Shown piece by piece: positions 21,274 to 58,700 of a stretch of DNA of 64,000 nt (within the stretch, counting starts at the first letter, position 1; each line of letters begins with the position of its first letter). This stretch comes from Methanobrevibacter ruminantium M1 (GTDB taxonomy: Archaea > Methanobacteriota > Methanobacteria > Methanobacteriales > Methanobacteriaceae): contig NC_013790.1 in NCBI RefSeq assembly GCF_000024185.1, positions 2,741,613 through 2,805,612 of the forward strand, read 5' to 3'. The notes beneath the pieces were generated by a model that was not told where the DNA came from, ran no database searches, and saw only the letters and a program-made list of their open reading frames with translations. The position numbers were made by a program, and so were the translations under genes.

Positions 21274-22257
21274 ATGGAATTTAACGACCCTGCATTGGAG
21301 CATTTGGTAAACAAGATCACAGTTGCGCTGAACGAGAACAATAAGGAAGATGCAGCACATTATATGGACATTATCATAGATAAGTACCCTGAAGTTGCAA
21401 ATATTTTAATGAACTCTATCGAGTTTCAAAACATAATGGCTCAAAACGAAGATGTTGAAGGTGAAGAAGCATCAGATGACTTTGCAATCCAGCCCGGAAG
21501 TGCTATGGAACTTGATGAAGAGAAAATCATAAATGACATGAATGCAATGCTTGATATAGAGCCAACCACAGCTCAAGAATACATTCAAAAGGGTACAGTA
21601 TTAACAGTTACCGAAGAATATGAAAAGGCATTGGAATGCTTTGACAAGGCTTTAGAGTTGGACGAAAACAATCTTTCAGCACTGATATCAAAGGGAAACA
21701 CCCTAGAGCTTATGGAAAAATTCGATGATGCCTCAAAGGTATATGATGATGTTATGAACACTGAAGTGGAAGAGGTCTATGACCTTATGAGCAAAGGATA
21801 TATCTTTGAAGGCCACCAAAGATACAATGACGCCTTAAAAACATATGACAAGGCTCTTCAAAAGGAAAGATATAACGCTAACATTCTATTTTTAAAGGGA
21901 AGCTGTCTAATCAAGCTTGAACAGTACCAAAAGGCAATCGACAGCCTTGAGGAAGCTATAGAAAGGTATAGCGAAAACCCATATGAAACCATATTCGAGC
22001 TTGAAAACGCATACCACAACAAAGGAGTCTCATTGCATGCAATCGGTGAAGATGACGACGCTCTTGAAGCATTCAGCCTTGCATTGGGATTAAACCCAGA
22101 ATACTACTACTCCTACTATGAAATAGGCATAATCCAAGAGGACAGAGAAAAGTATGACAGCGCTTTAAAGAACTATAATAAATTCTTAGAATATGACAAT
22201 ACCGACTCTGAAGTTGTAGAGGCTAAAGAAAGAGTAGAAGAATTGTTAAAAGAATAA
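21274..22257 (+). CDS. Tetratricopeptide repeat protein
   Basis: 327 residues. An acidic N-terminal helical region (1-100) is followed by about six TPR units from residue ~100 to the end, seen as repeated patterns such as YEKALECFDKALELDENNLSA, YNDALKTYDKALQKERYNA and DDALEAFSLALGLNPEYYYS. It is cytoplasmic, with no signal peptide. The start has GGTGGGAAAA before the ATG. TPR proteins mediate protein-protein contacts; partners cannot be told from the sequence. Such genes are abundant in Methanobacteriales. Confidence 0.85.
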   Translation: MEFNDPALEHLVNKITVALNENNKEDAAHYMDIIIDKYPEVANILMNSIEFQNIMAQNEDVEGEEASDDFAIQPGSAMELDEEKIINDMNAMLDIEPTTAQEYIQKGTVLTVTEEYEKALECFDKALELDENNLSALISKGNTLELMEKFDDASKVYDDVMNTEVEEVYDLMSKGYIFEGHQRYNDALKTYDKALQKERYNANILFLKGSCLIKLEQYQKAIDSLEEAIERYSENPYETIFELENAYHNKGVSLHAIGEDDDALEAFSLALGLNPEYYYSYYEIGIIQEDREKYDSALKNYNKFLEYDNTDSEVVEAKERVEELLKE

Positions 22258-22440
22258 ATAAATAAATTAAAATTATTATAAAGTATTTTAAATATTTTAT
22301 AATAATTATTTTTTTATGAAAAAATAAATAGTTCGTTATAAATGAAACTTTAATATTAGATTTTTGAAGAAAATAGCAATATCTGGAAATTTATTTTTCA
22401 TTCAAAAAAAAAATTCGTTTTTATATAACCCTTATAAATG

Positions 22441-22508
22441 TGTTCGCAATTTGCGAACAATCCTTTATATATACATGTTCGCAATTTGCGAACAAAGATT
22501 TATATATA
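22441..22508 (+). promoter_or_regulatory. Twin palindromic operators, each followed by a TATA box
   Basis: The 19-bp inverted repeat TGTTCGCAATTTGCGAACA occurs twice, at 22441-22459 and 22476-22494, 35 bp apart. Each copy is followed within a few bases by TTTATATATA (22463-22472 and about 22499-22508), the layout of an archaeal promoter under repressor control. No gene follows on the plus strand before the convergent argS end. The TTCG...CGAA arms recall sites reported for methanogen V4R regulators (MsvR), but the spacing here is 7 and I do not claim identity. Confidence 0.6.
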
Positions 22509-22638
22509 AGATTTAAAAATTTGCAATAAAACAAAATATAAATAACTAATTTTAAAAAAGCACATATTAAGGCATTAAAAAAAGCAATAATTTAATCAAA
22601 TAAGAATTAAAAAAAGTGTTAAAAAATGAAAAAATAGT

Positions 22639-22657
22639 GGAGAGATTTCCTCTCCTT
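22639..22657 (-). terminator. Hairpin downstream of argS
   Basis: Stem GGAGAG / CTCTCC with loop ATTTC. Read on the minus strand it is followed by the T-rich ACTATTTTTTCATTTTTT, suiting termination of argS transcripts. Confidence 0.6.
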
Positions 22658-22711
22658 AAAAAAAGTTGAATTCCCTTCTAAACGAAGATAAAACCAAATA
22701 ATAAATAAACA

Positions 22712-22754
22712 TTTTGATCAAACTTTTGCGAGCCGAAGGCTCGGAAAAGTTTGG
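22712..22754 (-). terminator. Dispersed palindromic element after argS
   Basis: TTTTGATCAAAC then CTTTTGCGAGCC GAA GGCTCGGAAAAGTTTG, a long near-perfect hairpin (core 22729-22743), ending at the argS stop codon. It is the best-preserved copy of the family in the window. Confidence 0.7.
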
Positions 22755-24476
22755 CTACATCATATCAGGCGCACTCACACCTAAAAGGTCAAGAGCATTC
22801 CTAAGAGTGATTCTAGACTTTTCAACCAAAAGAAGCCTTGCATTTTCCACATCAGAGCCAATTACCTGCTCTGCCTTATAGAACCTATTGAATGCGCTAG
22901 CCAAGTCCTGACAGTATTGAGCAATAGGATGGACCCTTCTAATCTTAGCAGAGTCTTCCACAAGACTTGGGAATTTTGCAATCAACTTAACAAGCTCCTT
23001 CTCGTTTTCATCCAAGGACCAAGTATCCTCAACAGTCAAGTCAGCTAAATCAATGCCCTTTTCCTCTTGAGCCTTCTTAAGCAATTTGCATGCTCTTGCA
23101 TGGGCATATTGAATTGAAGCGCATCCTCTCTCAAAGCTTAAGGCCTCATCCCACTTGAATGTTATGTGCTTTTCAGGAGAGAGCCTTGCAATGTAATATC
23201 TGATTGCGCCGATACCAATCTCTTCAGCAATCTTATCGATAGTTTCCTTATCAAGGTCCGGTCTGCGAGAAATAATCTCTTCAGTTGCCCTTCTAACAGC
23301 CTCATCCATAAGCTCATCCACAGAGATGAAGACTCCTCTTCTTGTGGACATGGAACCTTCAGGCAAGGTAATGAACTCATAGAAAATGACTTCAATCTTA
23401 TCGCTGTTTGGCTCGATTTCCTCAAGAATCTCAAGTGCAAGCTCCACCTGCCTTGCTGCAAGCTTATGGTCAGAGCCGAATATGTCAATGATCTTGTCAC
23501 AGTTTTTAGACTTATAAATGTGATAAGCAATGTCCCTTGTAGAGTAAAGGGAAGTTCCATCTGCCCTTCTAAGGACTAGCTCCTTAGGAATGTCGAATTC
23601 GCTTAAGTCAAGGTATAAAACCTCTTCCTGCCTTGCATATCCAATGTCATAAAGCTCTTGGGTAAGGTTGTCTACAATGCCAGTTCTAACGAACTGTCCT
23701 TCCCATACAAAGGCGTCATGCTTTACATTCATTCTCTTCAAGGTTTCCTTTACACCTTCAAGGCAGCTGTTGACAGCATATTCAAACTTCTCATCAAGCT
23801 CGCTTGGACCGCCTTCATATTTGCGGATAGTTGCATCAACGCCATCGTTCAAGCTTTCATCTTCCTTAATCATTTGGTTTACCTTGAAGTAAAGCTCTCC
23901 CACCTTGTGGTCAATCTTGGAAGCTGGCTGGTCCTCAAGCTTCAATCCAAGCTCTTCCATACCATATACAATCATGGCCAACTGCCTTCCCATATCATTG
24001 ACATAATATTGGGTATCCACATTATATCCTGCCTTTGTAAGCAATCTCCTTAATGAATCTCCGATTACAGAGTTTCTGATATGACCAATATGCAACGGAC
24101 CGTTAGGGTTTGCAGAGGTGTGTTCCAATATGATCTTCTCATCTACTGCAGCCAATTGACCATAATCCTCATCAACAGAGTCCAATAGCTGCTTTGCAAA
24201 GATGTCATGATTAATGAAGAAGTTTACATAAGGACCTGTAGCTTCCACCCTTTCAAAAATCTCTGGAAGCTCGATTTTTTCAACCACTTCAGGAGCAATT
24301 AAATTAGGAGCCTTGCGAAGCAATTTAGCTAATTGGAATGAAATTGTACTTGCCAAATCACCTAATTCAGGATTAGGAGGAAACTCCAATTTAATTTCCT
24401 CATCAAATTCACAGTCAAACTGGTCGACTGCCTTTCTTAAAGCCTCTTCAGCTTCAGTCTTTATTTTAAAATACAT
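22755..24476 (-). CDS. argS: Arginyl-tRNA synthetase
   Basis: 573 residues, class I aminoacyl-tRNA synthetase. The Add-1 domain that recognises the D-loop is at residues 1-110. The HIGH motif is TSANPNGPLHIGHIRNSVIG. The KMSKS equivalent is degenerate, SMSTRRG, as is usual for ArgRS. The DALR anticodon-binding domain ends in ALDLLGVSAPDMM. Length is normal. It is followed directly by the palindromic element and a second hairpin, and convergent with the TPR gene. Confidence 0.97.
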   Translation of the reverse strand: MYFKIKTEAEEALRKAVDQFDCEFDEEIKLEFPPNPELGDLASTISFQLAKLLRKAPNLIAPEVVEKIELPEIFERVEATGPYVNFFINHDIFAKQLLDSVDEDYGQLAAVDEKIILEHTSANPNGPLHIGHIRNSVIGDSLRRLLTKAGYNVDTQYYVNDMGRQLAMIVYGMEELGLKLEDQPASKIDHKVGELYFKVNQMIKEDESLNDGVDATIRKYEGGPSELDEKFEYAVNSCLEGVKETLKRMNVKHDAFVWEGQFVRTGIVDNLTQELYDIGYARQEEVLYLDLSEFDIPKELVLRRADGTSLYSTRDIAYHIYKSKNCDKIIDIFGSDHKLAARQVELALEILEEIEPNSDKIEVIFYEFITLPEGSMSTRRGVFISVDELMDEAVRRATEEIISRRPDLDKETIDKIAEEIGIGAIRYYIARLSPEKHITFKWDEALSFERGCASIQYAHARACKLLKKAQEEKGIDLADLTVEDTWSLDENEKELVKLIAKFPSLVEDSAKIRRVHPIAQYCQDLASAFNRFYKAEQVIGSDVENARLLLVEKSRITLRNALDLLGVSAPDMM

Positions 24477-34007: not shown

Positions 34008-34392
34008 CTATAAGCAAATTTATATAACTTATTGTTTTTATAGATGCCTATCCTTAATAAATACTAAAAATAGATATGAGTAGTTTATTATATATAAATT
34101 TAACTATAAGTCATATAAATTTATTATTTTAAAAAAATAAAACGAAACCATAAGTTATAAGCAAAATAAATAAAAAATATTCAGAAAATATATTGATAAC
34201 TGAATAAAAAAATATGAAACAAAAATAGAAATGAAGATTATTCAAAAGAAGAATTAATTATTGGACAATGCAAAATAAAATATATTGAAAAAAATCTTAA
34301 GAAGCAGGGAAAAAGAATAAATTTTATAAAAACTTAAAGAAAAAGAGTTGATTTAAAATTAAATATTTTTAAAAAAGTAATTTATAGCAAGC
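34008..34392. other. Decayed upstream part of cassette copy 1 and AT-rich spacer
   Basis: From 34008 to about 34080 a minus-strand frame (YLLRIGIYKNNKLYKFAYSY) reads into cassette copy 1 in a different frame and is likely its remnant. The remainder to 34392 is AT-rich with no frame I can support. Confidence 0.4.
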
Positions 34393-43710: not shown

Positions 43711-46700
43711 TTATTCTTTCCTGCATCTTAGTCCTATACCTCCAAAGATAGCAAAGATTGCCATCAAGAATATTAGTAAAGGATTACCTGTTCTTAAACT
43801 AATATCCACACCATGTTTTGGTTTATCAGGAATAGGATCTGGATTATCGGATTTGTTATCAGCGATTTCGATAGTTGCATTATCAAAATTATTAGAAGTG
43901 TTCTTATCTGTTATTGAACAATTTACAGTAGCATTGTTAGTAAAGTTTCCAGAAATAAGTGCTTTACAACATATGTCTAATGTCACTTCTTCACCATTTG
44001 CTAAATCACCAATAGACCAAATACCTTTAGCCGCATCGAAAGTTCCCTTAGATGAATTATAAGCAATGAATTTTGTACTAGCAGGTAATGCATCATATAC
44101 ATAAACCTCAATTGCATCACAAGGTCCTTCATTCATGACTTTTATAATCCAATGCATTGTATCATTTACATTATACTTTATTTTATCAGATGATTTTTCA
44201 ATTACTAAATCAACAATAGGATAAACTTCTGTAGTATTGTTAGCCTTATTATTTGAATAATTAGACTCAACAGTAGTAGTATTTACAGAAACTGGGTTAG
44301 TGATATTTCCTAATTCGATGACTTTAGTATATATATTAATAGTAGCACTAGAACCGCTTGACAATTTACCCACAGTCCAAGTTCCACTTTCGTCATCATA
44401 CCTACCTGTACTTGCCTTATAACCAACAAACATAAGACCTTCAGGTAAAATATCACTTACACATACGTTTAAAGCTTCACTAGGACCGTTATTAGTAACT
44501 CTTACAGTCCAAGTGAGTATATCATCTATATTCACTTTTGTAGCATTAACGATCTTACTTATGACTAAATCACAAATCGGACTAGCAACTGTAGTGTTAT
44601 TTGCTACATTATTAGTATAATTATTATCTAGAGTAGTAGTATTAACAGTAGCAATATTAATTAAAGTACCATCAATAAGGACTTTAGTAACTAAGACAAG
44701 AGATACTGCAGTATCCTTTTCTAAAGTACCAATAGACCACTCACTAATAACTTCATTAAAATTACCAACACTAACATTATAATCAATTAATTCTAAACCT
44801 TTCGGTAAGATTTCTTTTACAATGACATTAGAAGCATCATGTGGACCAAGATTAGTAACTGTAATATTCCATTGTACCAGATCTGAAACATTACAATTAG
44901 TACAATTTACGGCTTTAGAAATGACTAAATCACAGAGATAGTCAGCTTCAGTAAAGTTACTTGCATTATTGTTAGTATAATTAGATTCATGGCTTGTAGT
45001 ATTTACAGTAGCAGTGTTTACAATAGTACCATTTACAAGAACACGGGTAACTAAGCTTAAAGAAACGGGAGTATTAGGCTCTAAATCACCAATATTCCAT
45101 TCACCGGTAATATTATTATAATTGCCACCGCTTACACTAATTAATTCAAGTCCATTGTCTAAAAGATCTTTAACAATTACATCTAAAGCAGTATCCGGAC
45201 CAAGATTTACAACGGTAATTTTCCATTCGACAATATCATAAACAAGAATTTCTGTAGCATTAACAGCTTTGTAAATAATCAAATCACAGACAGGTTTAGC
45301 GGTAGTATTGTTGGTATTGTTGGTTTCGTTGGTTAAATTAGAACCAGCGGAAACATTGTTTACCAAAGTACCATTTTCAACAACGTCAAAGAATACAGTG
45401 AAGTTTGCAGAATCTCCAGGTTCAAGGGAACCGACTAAGGTCCATCTGGAACCATCATAATTCCACTTGCGACTGCTATTCTCATATCTATTGTAGAGTA
45501 AACCATTTGAATAATCATCATCTATAACATATATTCCACTTAAATCGCAATCACCAACATTGCTTACAAGAATTGTAAAGCTGGTGATATTTCCGACATA
45601 AACAGATTCATCATTACTAATTTTTAAAACAGTCATTTTAGGACTGTATGCAGTTGTGTTATTTGTTGTGTTTGTTTTGTTAGTCAAGTTTGAACTTGCT
45701 GAAGCGTTGTTTACCAAAGTACCATTTTCAACAACGGTAAAGAACACAGTAAAGTTAGCTGAACTGCCAGGTGTTAAATCACCGACCAATGACCATTCGC
45801 CATTGTTGTAATTCCAATTAGCACTGCCATTAATATAATTCTTATATTTTAGACCAGTGCTGTAATCTGTATCGGTAACAACAACTTCTGATAAGTTACA
45901 GTCACCGGTGTTGCTTACAACAATTGTAAAGCTTGTGGTATTACCAAGATAAACGATTTCATCGTTAGCTACTTTCATTACAGTCATATTAGGTAAATAT
46001 GCTCTTGTGCTGTTGGTAGCGTTTGTCTCATTGGTTAAATTGGATTTGGCGCTGATGTTGTTATATAAAGTACCGTTTTTGGTAACGTTGAAGTAGACAA
46101 CAAAACTAGCGAAACCTTCAGGAGCAAGATCTCCTATTAAGGTCCATGTTCTTGTTTCATCGTCATAATCCCATTTGCGGTCACCGTTAGGTACCCAAAC
46201 ACCATTGTACTCTAAACCTTCACTGAACCAATATTCGCAAATAACAACATCAGACAAGCTACAATCACCAGTATTTTTAACAAATATGGTAAAGATAGCT
46301 GTGTCTCCAACATAGACTGTATCCTCATAAATGAGTTTTTCAACAGTCATGTTAGGTCTGTAAGCAGTAGTGTTGTTTGTTGCATTGGTTTCGTTGGTTA
46401 AATTGGATTTAACACTTGCGTTGTTTACCAATGTGCCATTGTCAATAACAATGAAGAATACTGTTAAGTTAGCGGAAGCACCCGGAGCCAAATCACCGAC
46501 TAAAGTGAATTTATCTCCATCATAATTCCATTTACTGCTAGTATTCGCATATCTGCTGTACTGTAGACCAGCACTGTAATCATTATCAGTTACAACGATT
46601 TCAGATAAGCTGCAGTCACCAGTGTTAGTTACAACAATAGTGAAACTAGTGGTGTTTCCAAGATAGACAACACCATCGTTACTGATCTTTTGAACAGTCA

Positions 46701-49700
46701 TGTTAGGTCTGTAAGCAGTGGTATTGTTAGTAGCATTGGTTTCATTGGTTAAATTAGAACCAGCGGTAGCATTGTTTACTAAAGTACCATTGTCAATTAC
46801 GGTAAAGTAAACAGTTATGCTAGCATTATCACCAACAGTTAACTGACCTTCAAGGTTCCATCTGCCTCCAGCATAAGTCCAAGTGCCTTTAACAGGAACG
46901 AACTTATTGTTGTATTGTAAACCTTTACTGAAATCATCATCTTTTATATAAACACCAGTTAAGTTACAGTCACCAGTGTTAGTAACAATGATTGTGAAAC
47001 TGGTCTCATTACCAACATAGACAAGTTGATCGTTACTGACCTTTTGAACAGTCATGTTAGGCCTGTAAGCAGTGGTATTATTTGTTGCATTGGTTTCGTT
47101 GGTTAAATTAGATTTAACACTTGCATTGTTTACTAATGTACCATTGTCAACAACAATAAAGAACACAGTTAAGTTTGCGGAATTACCAGGAGCCAAATCA
47201 CCTACCAGAGTGAACTTGCCACCATTATAATTCCATAATCTGCTGCTGTTCTCATATCTGCTGTATTTTAAGCCAAGACTATAATCATTATCAGTCACAA
47301 CGATTTCGGAAAGGTTGCAATCACCAGTGTTAGTCACAACAATAGTGAAACTGGTAATGTTACCAACATAAACAACCTCATCATTACTAATCTTTTGAAT
47401 AGTCATGTTAGGCCTGTAAGCAGTAGTGTTATTTGTTGCGTTGGTTTCGTTGGTTAAATTAGATCTAACGCTTGCATTGTTTACCAAGGTACCGTTATCA
47501 ATAACAGTGAAGAACACAGTAAACTCGGCAGAACTACCATTGGTTAAATCACCAACTAAACTCCAAGTATGACCTACAGCATCATAATTCCAATTCCTAG
47601 TGCCATTAGCATAAGTCAAGTAACTTAAACCAGCACTGAAATCAGAATCAGTCACAACAATATCAGACAGATTACAGTCACCAGTGTTAGTCACAACAAT
47701 AGTGAAACTGGTAATGTTACCAACATAAACAACCTCATCATTACTAATCTTTTGAATAGTCATGTTAGGCCTGTAAGCAGTAGTGTTATTTGTTGCGTTG
47801 GTTTCATTGGTTAAATTAGATCTAACGCTTGCATTGTTAACCAAGGTACCGTTATCAATAACAGTGAAGAACACAGTAAACTCGGCAGAACTACCATTGG
47901 TTAAATCACCAACTAAACTCCAAGTATGACCTACAGCATCATAATTCCAATTCCTAGTGCCATTAGCATAAGTCAAGTAACTTAAACCAGCACTGAAATC
48001 AGAATCAGTGACAACAATATCAGACAGATTACAGTCACCAGTGTTAGTCACAACAATAGTGAAACTGGTAATGTTACCAACATAAACAACCTCATCATTA
48101 CTAATCTTTTGAATAGTCATGTTAGGCCTGTAAGCAGTAGTGTTATTTGTTGCGTTGGTTTCATTGGTTAAATTAGATCTAACGCTTGCATTGTTTACCA
48201 AGGTACCGTTATCAATAACAGTGAAGAACACAGTAAACTCGGCAGAACTACCATTGGTTAAATCACCAACTAAACTCCAAGTATGACCTACAGCATCATA
48301 ATTCCAATTCCTAGTGCCATTAGCATAAGTCAAGTAACTTAAACCAGCACTGAAATCAGAATCAGTGACAACAATATCAGACAGATTACAGTCACCAGTG
48401 TTAGTCACAACAATAGTGAAACTGGTAATGTTACCAACATAAACAACCTCATCATTACTAATCTTTTGAATAGTCATGTTAGGCCTGTAAGCAGTAGTGT
48501 TATTTGTTGCGTTGGTTTCATTGGTTAAATTAGATCTAACGCTTGCATTGTTTACCAAGGTACCGTTATCAATAACAGTGAAGAACACAGTAAACTCGGC
48601 AGAACTACCATTGGTTAAATCACCAACTAAACTCCAAGTATGACCTACAGCATCATAATTCCAATTCCTAGTGCCATTAGCATAAGTCAAGTAACTTAAA
48701 CCAGCACTGAAATCAGAATCAGTCACAACAATATCAGACAGATTACAGTCACCAGTGTTAGTCACAACAATAGTGAAACTGGTAATGTTACCAACATAAA
48801 CAACCTCATCATTACTGACCTTTTGAATAGTCATGTTAGGCCTGTAAGCAGTAGTGTTATTAGTTCCATTGGTTTCATTGGTTAAATTGGAACCTGCAGA
48901 AACATTGTTAACTAAAGTACCATTATCTACTACGGTAAAGTAAACAGTAAAGTTAGCAGTAGGATTATCAGTAGTGAGATTACCGACTAAAGTCCATTTA
49001 GCGCCATCATAAGTCCAATCACGAGAACCATTCTCGTATCTAAGGTAACTTAAACCTGCGCTATAATCAGAATCAACTACATAAACTCCACTTAAATTAC
49101 AATCACCAGTATTTCTAACAAGAATAGTAAAGCTAGTCACATTACCGATGTAGACCACTTTATCGTTAGCGATTTTTTGAACTGTCATGTTAGGAACCGC
49201 TATAGGTGTATTAGTAACAGTCCAATTTCCAACAGTATTATTAGTAATTAGAACGCTGTAGCCATCTACACGAACCTCGCCAATAGTATAATTAATCAAT
49301 TTGCCGTTATTATATTGAGGCAAACCACTGAAAGTATAAGTCCAAGCACCTCTAGCGGTTAAATTGGTCTCATTAACTTTCTTACCATCAGCAAACAACT
49401 CAATAGTCACATTAGAAGGCCTAATACCATATTTATCATTACTGTCGTTCCAGACTTTAGTTACATTAATTTCTGTAACATTTGGAACGTGAGTGTTGTA
49501 AACTGTCCAATTGGATTGATTGTAACTGACATCATAGCCAACAGGAACAACAGACTCATTGACAATGTAAACAATAGGAACAGTTGTACCGTTAAACTTA
49601 GGCAAGTCTTTGAATGTGTAATTCCATCCATCAGTTCCGGTTACAAGAACAGAGCGTTCAGTGCCGTCACTACCAATCAAGGTAATGTTAACGCTGATTG

Positions 49701-52700
49701 GCCTGATACCATCCTGGTTGTTAGCATCTTCCCAAACCTTAGTAACAGTAATGTTAACTAATTCAGGAACATGAGTGTTGTATACTGTCCAGTTGGTTTG
49801 GTTGTAGCTGACTTCATAGCCAACAGGAACAACAGACTCATTGACAGTGTAAACAATAGGTACAGTTGTACCGTTAAACTTAGGCAAGTCTTTGAATGTG
49901 TAATTCCATCCATCAGTTCCGGTTACAAGAACAGAGCGTTCAGTGCCGTCACTACCAATCAAGGTAATGTTAACGCTGATTGGCCTGATACCATCCTGGT
50001 TGTTAGCATCTTCCCAAATCTTGGTAACAGTAATGTTTACGATTTCAGGAACATGAGTGTTGTATACTGTCCAGTTGGTTTGGTTGTAGCTGACTTCATA
50101 GCCAACAGGAACAACAGACTCATTGACAGTGTAAACAATAGGATCAGTAGTTCCATTGTACACTGGCAAGTCAGTGAATGTGTAATTCCAGACACCGTTA
50201 TTTTCGGTTACAAGAACAGAGCGTTCAGTGCCATCAGTACCAATCAAAGTAATGTTAACACTGCCTGGCCTGATTCCATCCTGGTTGTTAGCATCTTCCC
50301 AAATCTTGGTAACAGTAATGTTTACGATTTCAGGAACATGTGTATTGTATACAGTCCGGTTGGATTGGTTGTAACTTACTTCATAGCCAACAGGAACAAC
50401 AGACTCATTGACAGTGTAAACAATAGGATCAGTAGTTCCATTGTACACTGGCAAGTCAGTGAATGTGTAATTCCAGACACCGTTATTTTCGGTTACAAGA
50501 ACAGAACGTTCAGTGCCGTCACTACCAATCAAAGTAATGTTAACACTGCCTGGCCTGATTCCATCCTGGTTGTTAGCATCTTCCCAAATCTTGGTAACAG
50601 TAATGTTTACGATTTCAGGAACATGAGTGTTGTATACAGTCCAGTTGGATTGATTGTAGCTTACTTCATAGCCAACAGGAACAACAGACTCAATGACAGT
50701 GTAAACAATAGGATCAGTAGTTCCATTGTACACTGGCAAGTCAGTGAAAGTGTAATTCCATACGCCATCAGTCTCGGTTACAAGAACAGAACGTTCAGTG
50801 CCGTCACTACCAATCAAGGTAATGTTAACGCTGCTTGGCCTGATTCCATCCTGGTTGTTAGCATCTTCCCAAACCTTAGTAACAGTAATGTTAGTCACTT
50901 CAGGAACATGAGCGTTGTATACAGTCCAATTGGATTGATTGTAGCTTACTTCATAGCCATCAGGAACAACAGACTCAATGACAGTGTAAACAATAGGATC
51001 AGTAGTTCCATTGTACACTGGCAAGTCAGTGAAAGTGTAATTCCATACGCCATCAGTCTCGGTTACAAGAACAGAACGTTCACTGCCATCACTACCAATC
51101 AAGGTAATGTTAACACTAGTAGGCCTGATACCATCCTGGTTGTTAGCATCTTCCCAAACCTTAGTAACGGTTATGTTTACAAGCTCAGGAATGTGAGTGT
51201 TGTATACAGTCCAGTTGGATTGGTTGTAACTTACTTCATAGCCGTCAGGAACAACAGACTCATTGACAGTGTAAACAATAGGATCAGTAGTTCCATTGTA
51301 CACTGGCAAGTCAGTGAAAGTGTAATTCCAGACACCGTTATTTTCGGTTACAAGAACAGAACGTTCAGTGCCATCACTACCAATCAAGGTAATGTTAACA
51401 CTAGTAGGCCTGATACCATCCTGGTTGTTAGCATCTTCCCAAACCTTAGTAACGGTTATGTTTACAAGCTCAGGAATGTGAGTGTTGTATACAGTCCAGT
51501 TGGATTGGTTATAACTTACTTCATAGCCGTCAGGAACAACAGACTCATTGACAGTGTAAACAATAGGATCAGTAGTTCCATTGTACACTGGCAAGTCAGT
51601 GAAAGTGTAATTCCAGACACCGTTATTTTCGGTTACAAGAACAGAACGTTCAGTGCCATCACTACCAATCAAGGTAATGTTAACGCTGCTTGGCCTGATA
51701 CCATCCTGGTTATTAGCATCTTCCCAAACCTTAGTAACAGTAATGTTAGTCACTTCAGGAACATGAGTGTTATATACTGTCCAATTGGATTGATTGTAAC
51801 TGACATCATAGCCATTAGGAACAACAGACTCATTGACAGTGTAAACAATAGAATCACCAGAGCTGTTAAACATAGGTAAATCTGTGAAAGTGTAATTCCA
51901 TACACCACCAGTTCCAGTTACAAGAACAGAACGTTCACTGCCATCACTACCAATCAAAGTAATGTTAACGCTAGTAGGCCTGATACCATCCTGGTTATTA
52001 GCATCTTCCCAAACCTTAGTAACAGTAATGTTAGTCACTTCAGGAACATGAGTGTTATATACTGTCCAATTGGATTGATTGTAACTGACATCATAGCCAT
52101 TAGGAACAACAGACTCATTGACAGTGTAAACAATAGAATCACCAGAGCTGTTAAACATAGGTAAATCTGTGAAAGTGTAATTCCATACACCACCAGTTCC
52201 AGTTACAAGAACAGAACGTTCACTGCCATCACTACCAATCAAAGTAATGTTAACGCTAGTAGGCCTGATTCCATCCTGGTTGTTAGCATCATCCCAAACC
52301 TTAGTAACGGTAATGTTAGTAAGGGTTTCGGTAGTATTGTTCGCAACATTGTTAGTATAATTGGTCTCTGGAGTAACAGTAGTGACATTAGCAACATTGG
52401 TAAAGATACCATATTTAGTCACATTAGTTACTAAATTCATGACCATTGTACTGTTTTCATCTAAACTATTAATGCCTAAAGTAAGATTTGTAGAGTTAGT
52501 GCCATTAACTAGGGTTAAATTGACCTTATATTCCACAAATGTCTTATCACCAATAGTCCAAATGCCAGTATTGTTGTCATAAGTGGTATTCACTTCGCTA
52601 ATCAAATCGCCAGTTACTTCATCATATGTTCTATTGACGAAAGTCCAAACATTGCTAGACTCATTATAGAAAGCATCTCCAAAGAGATTAGAGAAGAATG

Positions 52701-55700
52701 TTTCATCGAATGCTGTGTAAGTTAAAACATCATCATCCAATGCAAGAACATAATAAGTCCAAGTCTTTGCAGCTTGATCATAAGCAGCAATGCCGCTAAT
52801 CCACTCACCACTAGTCTCGTTATAAACACTGAAAGACAAAGTCATAGTGCTTAAATCAAGAGTAGCGTTAGTCCATAAACTTCCAGTGCCATTATAGACC
52901 TTGACTGTCAAATTAGTTAAATCAAGACCATCAGGCAAGTAATCATTCATGGTTACATTGACTGCCTCAAAAGTACCATTGTTTAAAACTGTGACATTCC
53001 AATCGACAATGCCTGAAACATTGGTTAGATTATCGCTTACAGTCTTATTGATTACAAGGTCGTTGTAAACTATAGTGCTGTTGTTAGCAACATTGTTAGT
53101 GTAATTCTTTTCCGGACTATCTGTAGTCACATTAACAATATTGGTAAAGTTACCTCGTTTAGTCACATTGGTGACGAGATTCATAAGCACACTGCCGTTT
53201 CCATCAAATCTGCCAACATCTAAAGAAATGTCAGTAGAATTAGTATGGTTTGCTATGCTTAAACTAATCTTATTAACAAGATAAATCTTTTCCGGACTGA
53301 TGTAAGATACATTTGGATTAATTGACACCAATTCTGGAACAACTAATCTATTGTTAATTGTCCAAATGCCAGAACTGACATTGTAAATGGTGTCATTTCT
53401 AATGAGGCTATCGGTTTCAGCGTCATAATATGCATTCACATATACATAGGTATTGTTTTCAGCATTATAATGATAATTGCTTCCAAATACGTCCACGAAA
53501 TTTTCAGGATTGAAAATATAGTAAGTTACATTATTGGAATCATCACCATAATTAAGACTGTAATAATACCATTTGCCATCTGTTGCATTATAACTGATAT
53601 TTTCATAATTCCAAGAACCATCATCATATATGGCAGTGCCAAATGCATCAACGAAGAAAGACTCATCGAAAACGCCATAAACAAAGGTATTTCCACCATA
53701 ATCAAAGGTATAATAATACCAATTTCCTGTTGTTGCATCATAGCTGATATTTCTATAGGTCCAACTGTTGATGTCCTCATAATACCTGGCCTCTCCAAAT
53801 GCATCAACGAAGTAAGACCCATTGAAAACACCATAAACATAGGTATGGTCATCATATTCAAATGTGTAATAATACCAATCGGCATTATCCACATCATAGC
53901 TGATATTTCTATAGGTCCAACTGTTGATGTCCTCATAATACCTGGCCTCTCCAAACGCATCAGTGTAATCGGATTGATTGAAAACACTGTAAGCAAATGT
54001 TCTGTTATCAGCCAAACTAAGGACATAATATGTCCAGGTATTGCTTGACTCATCATAACTGGCAACACCATTAATCCAGGTGCCATCTGCCTTGTTATAT
54101 ACACTGAAAGTCAGGTTATTGCTAGTTAAATTAAGGACAGCATTGTTCCATAGGCCACCAGTGCCATTATAGAAATGAATGGTTAGATTATCAGTTAAGT
54201 TAAGACCGTCAGGTAGGAAATCAATGATGGTAACGTTCTGAGCTTCAGACGCACCATCATTCCATATTGTGACATTCCAATCACGAATGTCGCCAACATT
54301 GGAAGTCTGATTATCAACAGTCTTGTTTGCAACCATATCAACATCAATTACTCTAAATGATGAAACATTTCTAATTTCAGTATAATAAGTAGTTTCCGGA
54401 TAATATGCACTTACTACATAATTGCCCGCAGGCAAATTAGTGAGTCTTAGTGATACTGTACCAGAAATGTCTGTTTTATTGAAACCTACCAATATGGATT
54501 CATTTGTATCCCTATTGGTAATGTTATAGTATATGACTTGATTATCTTCTAAATCATCAATATATATCAAATTACCATTATCACTGTTTTCATATCCTAT
54601 AATCTCTATAGGAATATCTTCATCAATTGGGGTTGTTTTGTTTATTAAAACTCCATTGTTATAAAATGGATAAGTTACGTTTCTTACGGTAATACTGCTT
54701 TCAGCATCTCTATTATGGATAGCGTTAGCAATATTATCCCCTCCAATGTGACTAATGTTAATAATTACATCCTGACCTTTCAAATAGGTCTCATCACTTG
54801 GAGTTATTAATAAGAACCAGGAATGTGCCTGGTTGTCAAAGAAACTTGAATCATGTACTCTGATGTCTGAACCATCAGAATATATTGCAGATCCGTTTGT
54901 TGCGGTGTTATAGCTAAAGTTACCTTGAACATCAATGTTAGTGGCATAGGACATGTGGAAAGCTCCACCTTCCCCTCTATCAAGTGATATGTCACCTGTA
55001 GCATGATTGCTATAGAAGGTTGAATTTGTAACATTCAAGTTATCACAGTAGAGAAGATTTGCGAACCCACCGTTTTCTGCAGTGTTGTTAAATGCATAAA
55101 TCTTGTCCATAAAAGTGTCAGGTCCGAAGAATATTTGCACTCCCCCACCATTATCCTTAGCATGGTTTGAAGAGATATTGTTATTGGTGAAATTGGAATT
55201 TCCACCTAAAATGAATACTCCTCCACCCATAATGTTAAAGTCATGATCTTCATCAGTAGCTATAGCCTTATTGAAGGTAATGTTGTTGTTTGTGAATTTG
55301 GAATCCTCTCCCTCAATAAATATTCCACCACCATTGTAAGCTATGTTATTGGATATGGTACAATTCTCTACAGAATTGCTAGTTCCTCCTATATAGGTTG
55401 AACCACCATAATTCACAGCGGTGTTATTTACTGAGGTAACATTTACAAACCTGTTATCATCACCACTGATATAAACCGCACCACCATCCTCATCTGAGTG
55501 ACAGTTTGAAAGGGTTACATTCTCAAAGAGACAGTTTGTACCTGTAACGTCCAAACCACCACCTCTCCAGGTAGCGTTGTTATTGTTAAGGTCACAATTA
55601 ATAACTTTACAGTTATCACCTGCAACAAATGATGAACCTCCACGTTCTGCAGTGTTGTTTTCAGATGTTACATTGTTAAATGTTACGTTGTCTCCTCTAA

Positions 55701-58700
55701 CATAAACAGCACCTCCCTCCTTATCAGCATGACAGTTTGAGAGAGTTACGTTTTCAAAGACACAACCTGAACCGTTAACATCCAAACCTCCACCACGATT
55801 GGAAGCTGTGTTGTTGTCCAGGTTACAGTTTATAACAGTCACATTGTTACCTGCAATGAAAGAGGAACCTCCTCTTTGAGCTGTGTTGTTAGTTGAATTG
55901 ACATTGTCAAATAAACTGAAGTCACCAATAACGTAAACCGCACCACCGTCTTCACCGGCATCGTTATTGGACACACTGACGTTGATGACCTTACATCCGT
56001 CACCTCCGCCAATGTTAAGTCCTCCACCACGTACGGTAGCGGTGTTGTTGTCCAAGTTACAATTTTGCACTGTAACATTTGAACCGCGAATGAAAGTGGA
56101 ACCTCCACGGTAAGCGGAGTTGTTGTTGGAGTGAACGCTATCAACAAGGATATTGTCCCCTACAATGTCAAATCCTCCACCTAAACCGGATTCGTCAGGT
56201 CTGGACTCATTGTAGATAGCTCTGTTGTTGTTGAGCTCACCATCCCTGATTGTTATGCCGGTACCGTTGATGAATGCAGATCCACCACGTTCTGCAGTGT
56301 TGTTGTCGGCAGTGATGTTTCTAAATTCAGTACCGTTTGATACTACATAGATACCACCGCCCATAAGGCCTGCATTGTTGTTGGATACATCAACATCATC
56401 AATAATACATCTGTCACCTGCAATGTTCAATCCTCCACCTCTAAGGGTAGCATTGTTACCGTCCAAGGTACAGTTTGCAACATATGTGTCATCACCACGA
56501 ATAAATGTGGATCCGCCACGATAAGCGGTGTTGTTAGTGGAATTAACATTTGTTACATTACAGCCATCACCTTTAATGTCCAATGCACCACCAAGACCGG
56601 ATTCATCTGGCCTGGTTTCATTGAAAATAGCCCTATTGTTATTGAATGTAGCATTGTCAATGGTGACATTGTTACCTTCGATAAAGGCACCTCCACCACG
56701 TTCGGCAGAGTTGTTGTTTGCAGTGATATTTCTGAACTCTGTACCGTTAGCAACTACGTAGATAGCACCGCCCATGAGACCAGCAGTGTTATTGGAAACA
56801 TCCACATTGTAGACAGTACAGTTCTCACCAGCAATGTTCAAACCTCCACCTCTAAGGGTAGCATTGTTACCCTCCAAGGTACAGTTTTCAACATGAGTGT
56901 TGTCACCACGAATGAAAGTGGAACCTCCACGATAAGCAGTGTTATTGAATGAATTAACATTGGTTACATTACAGCCATCACCTTTAATGTCCAATGCACC
57001 ACCAAGACCAGAGTCATCTGGCCTGCTCTCATTGAAAATAGCTTTATTGTCATTGAAGGTAGCATTATCAATTATAATGTCATTACCTTCGACAAAAACA
57101 GCTCCACCACGTTCGGCAGAGTTATTGTCAGCAGTAATGTTTCTAAAGACAGTGCCGTCAGCGATTACATAGATACCACCGCCCATGAGCCCAGCAGTGT
57201 TATTGGAAATGTCAACGTTGTGGATGGTACAGTTCTCACCTGCAATGTTCAAACCGCCACCTCTAAGGGTAGCATTGTTACCGTCTAAGGTACAGTTTTC
57301 AAGATAGGTGTTGTCACCACGAATGAAAGTGGAACCTCCACGGTAAGCGGTGTTGTTGAATGAGTCTACATTGGTTACATTACAGCCATGACCTTTGATA
57401 TCCAAAGCACCTCCAATACCTGATTCGTCAGGTTTACTTTCATTGAAAATAGCTTTGTTTCCATTGAAAGTACCATTATCGATAATGATGTCGTTACCTT
57501 CAACGAATGCGCCTCCACCACGTTCAGCAGTGTTATTGTCAGCAGTAATGTTTCTGAATTCGGTACCGTCAGCAATTACGTAGATACCTCCACCGTTTTC
57601 ACCAGCAGCGTTATTTGAAACATCTACATTGAATATGGTACATCCTTCACCAGCAATGTTCAATCCACCACCTCTAAGGGTAGCATTGTTATTGTCGAAA
57701 GTGGAATTTCTAATGACAGTGTCATTACCACGAATGAAAGTGGATCCACCACGATAAGCATTGTTGTTATCGGAAGTGACGTTGATGATTTGACAATTGT
57801 TACCAACAACGTCTAATGCACCACCAATACCAGATGTCTCATTTCTGCTTTCATTGAAGACAGCTGTATTATTGCTTAGATTAGTATTCTGAACCAATGT
57901 ATTGTCACCGCGAATGAAAGTGGAACCTCCAAGCTCGGCAGTGTTGTTTACAGAAGTGACACCAATAACCTTACAATTGTCACCGAGAATGTCTAAAGCA
58001 CCACCAATACCTGATTGGCTGCCAAGGCTTTCATTGTATAAAGCATTGTTGTTATTGAAGGTAGAATTGTAGATTGTAGTGTTTTCACCTTCAATATAAG
58101 AGGAACCTCCTCTTGATGCTGTGTTGTTTTCTGAAGTTACATTGTTAAATAAGGAATTGTGTCCAATAACCCAAATAGCACCTCCATCGGTACCTGCAAT
58201 GTTATTGGAAACATTTGAATCCTTGAATGTACTTGAATTACAGAAAATAGCAAGACCTCCACCTTCGGAAGAAGCGTTGTTGTTTACAAAGGTACAATTA
58301 TCTACCCAAGTCTTTCCTAATTCGTAGAAATCAACAGCTCCTCCCCTATCGGCAGTGTTGTTTTCACAGAAACAATCATACATGTTAACCTCTTGAAGGT
58401 GATAGATGTGAATAGCACCACCTTGAGCTCTGTCATCTCCACGACTTCCTTTAGCATCATTGTTTACGAATGTAGAATTTCTAAATTCAAGAATTAGAGT
58501 ATCGTAAAGAAATTCCTCAGTTGTTACATCAATAGCTCCACCATTACCATCGGTAGCAGTGTTATTGTCAAACAATGAATCGTAAATGTCAAATGCACCT
58601 CTTAAAGCACCTCCATATGGTGCTTGGTTATTTACAAAAGTGGTATTTGACAAGATCATTTCAGCATCACAAGACCAAATAGCACCACCACCACGGTATA

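Follow-up and report, generated by a model that had tools for sequence, protein, structure and literature searches.

Twin palindromes beside TATA boxes between two convergent genes of Methanobrevibacter ruminantium M1: a putative regulated promoter without a protein gene

Introduction

What would two identical 19-bp palindromes, each followed by a TATA-like box, control from a place between two convergent genes, where no protein gene follows them? The question is raised by a locus in a window of 64,000 nucleotides (the whole stretch of DNA that was analysed) from the archaeon M. ruminantium M1. A preliminary description had read the locus as a regulated promoter that serves no protein gene and whose product could be a small RNA, an antisense RNA against the 3′ end of argS or nothing at all, the gene having been deleted. 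The locus is absent from the literature that we found on operators, small RNA and transcriptomes of M. ruminantium and on archaeal antisense RNA.

The palindromes and their repeat unit

Both the reading of the sequence and a pattern scan of the window confirmed that the palindrome, TGTTCGCAATTTGCGAACA, occurs twice in identical form, made of 9-bp arms with one base at the centre, and that TTTATATATA begins 4 bp past each copy (Table 1). By its letters TTTATATATA is a good archaeal TATA box, which on the plus strand of the window is found only at these two places and on the minus strand once more, at 34098. The purine-rich stretch ahead of the second box we take to be BRE-like. Both copies of the palindrome also contain the motif TTCGN7-9CGAA, as TTCGCAATTTGCGAA.

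The copies lie in direct-repeat units with 83% identity, where 6 of 35 positions differ. All six differences are confined to the 16 flanking bases, while the 19 bp of the palindrome are unchanged, with p = 0.005 on the assumption that a single tandem duplication gave rise to both copies. This pattern only suggests selection on the palindromes, and the earlier statement that allowed only selection or a very recent origin was therefore too strong; what stands of it is that they are specific to the lineage.

Table 1. Coordinates of the features at the locus, as positions of the window
Feature	Position	Strand	Remarks
TPR gene	21274-22257	+	Convergent with argS
Hairpin with T-run, 3′ of the TPR gene	22264-22314	+	Common to relatives L004 and L013
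Two tandem 35-bp units	22433-22502	+	Differences all outside the palindrome; repeat comparison
Putative operator copy 1, TGTTCGCAATTTGCGAACA	22441-22459	.	Contains TTCG-N7-CGAA; sequence, pattern scan
Putative TATA box 1, TTTATATATA	22464-22473	+	4 bp past operator 1; sequence
Putative operator copy 2	22476-22494	.	Same palindrome as copy 1; sequence, pattern scan
Putative TATA box 2, TTTATATATA	22499-22508	+	Purine-rich ACAAAGA (BRE-like) before it; sequence
Candidate non-coding transcribed stretch	22509-22754	+	
Putative argS oligo-U termination zone	22515-22664	-	T-tracts at 22515, 22554, 22577, 22609, 22621, 22629, 22658
Hairpin then oligo-T, argS terminator-like site	22639-22655	-	Pattern scan
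argS	22755-24476	-	Convergent with the TPR gene

Rarity of the sites

The twin sites are beyond chance. With up to 3 mismatches allowed, the palindrome pattern gave 4 matches (the two sites on both strands), whereas 100 dinucleotide shuffles averaged 0.02 matches and never reached 4. In simulated 2.94-Mb genomes of the same composition, a TTCG-N7-9-CGAA motif at most 8 bp upstream of TTTATATA is expected 0.33 times (order-1) or 0 times (order-3) per genome, as the mean of 3 simulations each, versus 2 in the window. No further copy of the palindrome exists at up to 3 mismatches in the genome, a single contig of 2,937,203 bases. At up to 2 mismatches it is found in none of the 18 other genomes of the genus and in 4 of 138 genomes of the family, its own genome counted; the looser, single matches in the family (G049, G064 and G098) have arms that differ. 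The shorter motif TTCG-N7-CGAA has 25 sites in the genome, and among the 23 read besides the twins just one (L075) has a TATA-like hexamer no more than 30 bp away, and it lies inside a 1005-codon ORF; non-coding position and a neighbouring TATA box are thus combined at the twins only.

Exact copies of the palindrome in named genomes amounted to 5 scattered bacterial single sites without a common context and were rejected. The contexts of the looser family matches share no theme, with L034 lying between convergent genes, L035 within a RhuM-like ORF and L033 near a gene start (gene labels by eye). Viral contigs yielded neither exact nor near copies, and no DNA resembling the locus was found in phage records. 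Twin palindromes as a pattern occur in 7 of 137 family genomes, the cleanest besides those of M. ruminantium M1 being loci L082 and L083 of genome G021; in viral contigs the pattern picked out repeats rich in GC and, at an ORF end in L111, one pair of hairpins, which were rejected. A search for similar DNA in 60 genomes returned a full-length alignment only for the window itself, the other matches being the short hairpin element at the 3′ end of argS or AT-rich stretches. A regulon of TGTTC-N9-GAACA sites was also considered and is not visible in the genome, with 94 forward matches against 118 in the control at up to 1 mismatch.

The genome search for other copies that had been proposed to name the regulon thus returned nothing for the exact sequence, but looser members of the class are present at nrdD and msvR.

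A conserved operator type at nrdD and the case for MsvR

The pattern TTCGYA-N3-5-TRCGAA is not enriched in the genus, with 10 forward matches in 19 genomes versus 33 in a reversed control that is imperfect in that its CpG content differs. Its matches lie in mixed contexts, and one of them (L152) led to nrdD (TIGR02487), which there follows a gene labelled by eye as DNA polymerase DP2. The nrdD promoter of the genus reads TTGTTCGTATnAAAACGAATGATTTATATACA, and 10 of 12 readable copies, including that of M. ruminantium M1 (TTCGTAACAAGTCGAA), have TTCG-N8-CGAA 3 bp before TTTATATA; the comparison lacks L160, at a contig end, and G010, where there was no match. A second TTCG-N8-CGAA lies about 84 bp downstream of the place of the first in 7 of the 12. 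Repeats of TTACTAAC are carried by the nrdD promoters as well (L181:380-560 in M. ruminantium M1; L152 and L154-L165). The conserved nrdD sites indicate that the genus has a conserved type of operator, in which an inverted TTCG/CGAA pair directly adjoins a TATA box; of the examples seen, the twin sites are the most symmetric. The earlier interpretation as a whole is partly supported, and its core, a regulated promoter that lacks a protein gene, is well supported by sequence, since its operators abut the TATA boxes in a geometry that the genus conserves at nrdD.

A candidate for the protein that would bind such sites is MsvR. According to published work (PMC3729527), its motif is TTCGN7-9CGAA, with one base more or less of spacing tolerated, and takes the form TTCGTAN4TACGAA in the Mth MsvR box; the boxes sit over the BRE upstream of TATA, or over the start site, and binding blocks TBP/TFB. 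The protein is encoded in the genome (G000:C1:252539-253330, NF053755 equivalog, with 300.8 bits where the cut-off is 220). Upstream of msvR, 14 of 18 regions in the genus hold two or more TGTTCGYA half-sites, in many cases with a spacing of 40-42 bp, and the remaining 4 hold fewer than two, one of them being just 99 bases long. The msvR upstream region at L126 carries TGTTCGCA, the exact arm of the twin sites, and an ortholog from another genus (L137) has TTCGCAATAAAGCGAA. In M. ruminantium M1 itself the msvR region contains half-sites but no TTCG-N7-9-CGAA inverted repeat, and these half-sites read TTCGTA, whereas the arms of the twins read TTCGCA with 3 bases between them.

Placed beside the Mth form, the twins (TTCGCA-N3-TGCGAA) have C for T and are one base shorter. 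Their position does agree with an overlap with BRE/TATA or the start site, the TATA box being 4 bp from each palindrome, and departs from that of boxes upstream of a structural gene, in that no gene precedes the convergent argS. The looser members of the site class at nrdD and msvR point to MsvR, and on the sequences compared we would give even chances to its being the regulator of the twin sites. In the literature that we found on MsvR with Methanobrevibacter or with ribonucleotide reductase, nrdD is not named as an MsvR target; one review mentions both separately.

Gene neighbourhood and possible transcripts

The sites do lie between convergent genes, as previously described, and nothing coding follows them on the plus strand, where no ORF of at least 40 aa starts up to 22714. 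A 50-aa ORF with a TTG start that spans the palindromes (22364-22516) looks spurious. Thirteen other argS loci were found in the genus, ten of them readable up to the TPR gene; gene order was counted without L012, L014 and L016, whose fetched stretches contain no match to TPR. In seven of the ten (L005-L011) a plus-strand gene stands between TPR and argS, with a product that belongs to Pfam Vut_1 in L005 and is alike by eye in the other six, presumably for uptake of a vitamin or queuosine precursor. L004 and L013 have no intervening gene, and L015 has a different one on the opposite strand; the Vut_1 gene is absent from this spot in M. ruminantium M1, L004 and L013. Twin sites occur in none of the ten intervals. 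In the seven relatives the transporter begins shortly after TPR, without TTCG..CGAA twins upstream, and the sites are therefore not a remnant of the promoter that this gene has in those genomes. The proposal of a deleted-gene promoter is thus disfavoured for a Vut_1-type gene, and would now have to concern the loss of another.

The entire TPR-argS interval measures 192 bp in the closest relative, L004, where about 260 bp around the palindromes are missing; the palindrome part is specific to M. ruminantium M1. The hairpin just past the argS stop (22719-22753) belongs to a short stem-loop element of which the genus has many copies, sometimes in tandem (L011, L013). Elsewhere in the window, a minus-strand ORF of 5985 aa with long repeats (43711-61668) has the look of an adhesin-like surface protein.

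Past the sites, the plus strand has no oligo-T of at least 5 before 23503, inside argS, so that a transcript would probably run antisense into this gene. Seven plus-strand A-runs, which are T-runs for argS, together with a hairpin with a T-rich tail, make 22515-22664 read as the argS termination zone. Since the T-tracts there would serve argS and the plus strand offers none of its own, the option of a compact small RNA has lost ground. A minus-strand transcript from the palindromes would end early, at the T10 of 22404-22413. Rfam gave nine weak matches of microRNA models to the palindromes and one other at the locus, all below the gathering score. The candidate RNAs of either strand show no special structure (fold z of -1.5 to -1.7), and that 22433-22503 folds strongly (z -6.7) is a trivial effect of its palindromes. 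The simplest candidate product is still an antisense RNA to argS, and for a non-coding antisense product the scales seem about balanced.

A proposed mechanism and its alternatives

The presence of a regulator-bound archaeal promoter at the locus is likely. A dimeric repressor on the palindrome just upstream of the TATA box would block TFB and TBP. At the usual archaeal spacing a start lies about 27 nt past TATA box 1, which places the predicted start at the end of operator 2 and leaves this TATA box bracketed by sites 35 bp apart. The repressor would most likely be MsvR, a redox-sensitive regulator of methanogens, which on oxidation would release the site and let the promoter fire; the product would most likely be a plus-strand non-coding transcript entering the 3′ end of argS in antisense. 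The analysis shows the sites, their uniqueness, the promoter geometry, an msvR gene in the genome and related sites at msvR and nrdD; we infer that MsvR binds the twins and that redox state controls them, as well as the position of the start, the existence of a transcript and whatever it may do to argS. The joint reading, an MsvR-repressed promoter with a non-coding plus-strand product antisense to the 3′ end of argS, is tentative, with odds clearly below even. This grade was set above the bare product of its parts, since the parts support one another, and like all grades given here it is a judgement and not a computed value.

A serious rival sees in the twins the operators of a different dedicated repressor (of XRE, TetR or GntR type, such as one brought in by a mobile element) whose target gene was lost, leaving a relic promoter. 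The perfect 19-bp symmetry and the uniqueness in the genome fit such a protein, perhaps a horizontally acquired one, as does the absence from L004 of the DNA around the sites, and two unrelated viral contigs (L186:3583-3610 and L189:7868-7895) carry operator-like TTCG/CGAA repeats, as TTCG-N7-CGAA, and TTTATATA upstream of what is by eye an XRE-like repressor gene. As for the relic, both palindromes are intact though their flanks differ, neither a residual ORF nor phage or Rfam similarity is found, and the neighbour Vut_1 occurs in relatives without such sites; we regard this rival as possible, also short of even odds. Two strongly symmetric sites between convergent genes, with no compact gene or plus-strand terminator nearby, could also be a decoy or sponge for a regulator, or a boundary between the genes, without a useful transcript. 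The chance of this appears small, as a decoy has no need of a TATA box at equal spacing after each copy and two sites titrate only a few dimers.

Each palindrome can moreover fold into an 8-bp stem with a 3-nt loop, the pattern scan flagged the first copy as terminator-like, and single TTCG..CGAA palindromes stand between convergent genes in L148 and L150, all of which would suit hairpins for bidirectional termination. This is nevertheless quite unlikely, because no oligo-T lies directly beside either flank and both genes have hairpin and T-run ends of their own (about 22264-22316 and 22655-22630). The restriction of the sites to one lineage would also agree with a chance tandem duplication of one functionless palindrome; with one site alone already unexpected from the shuffles, the same TATA geometry at nrdD and differences that avoid the palindrome (under the duplication assumption given above), this is very unlikely.

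Returning to the promoter controlled by MsvR, its boldest form, in which those MsvR-type operators that are the most symmetric in the genome control no protein but an antisense RNA that responds to redox state and opposes argS, is rather improbable; if true, it would tie the output of arginyl-tRNA synthetase to oxidative stress in this methanogen lineage. The locus is in any case a concrete candidate for a non-coding RNA promoter in an important rumen methanogen, with a candidate regulator named, and the follow-up brought to light that nrdD, the gene of an oxygen-sensitive ribonucleotide reductase, has a conserved site resembling those of MsvR.

Comparison with known systems

In G021, an archaeon of the same family, twin GTTCAAAATTTAAGAAC palindromes precede a DNA methylase-like gene (L082) and an HTH-like gene (L083) on separate contigs, perhaps as a two-gene regulon (labels by eye). 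They resemble the twins of M. ruminantium M1 in being two identical palindromes (GTTC-N9-GAAC), and differ in arm sequence, in lying 55 bp apart from start to start and in having downstream genes. The nrdD promoter shares with the twins a TGTTCG-Nx-CGAA directly upstream of a ATTTATATA box, whereas its pre-TATA site is single, has N8, is less symmetric and drives a protein gene. Compared with the Mth MsvR boxes, the twins have TTCGCA instead of TTCGTA, N7 instead of N8, perfect 9-bp arms and no downstream gene. On the other hand, they are like the boxes of msvR/fpaA in Methanothermobacter and of msvR in Methanosarcina acetivorans in having TTCG/CGAA arms 7-9 bp apart, in the presence of two boxes, and in the place of a box over the BRE beside the TATA box or over the start site.
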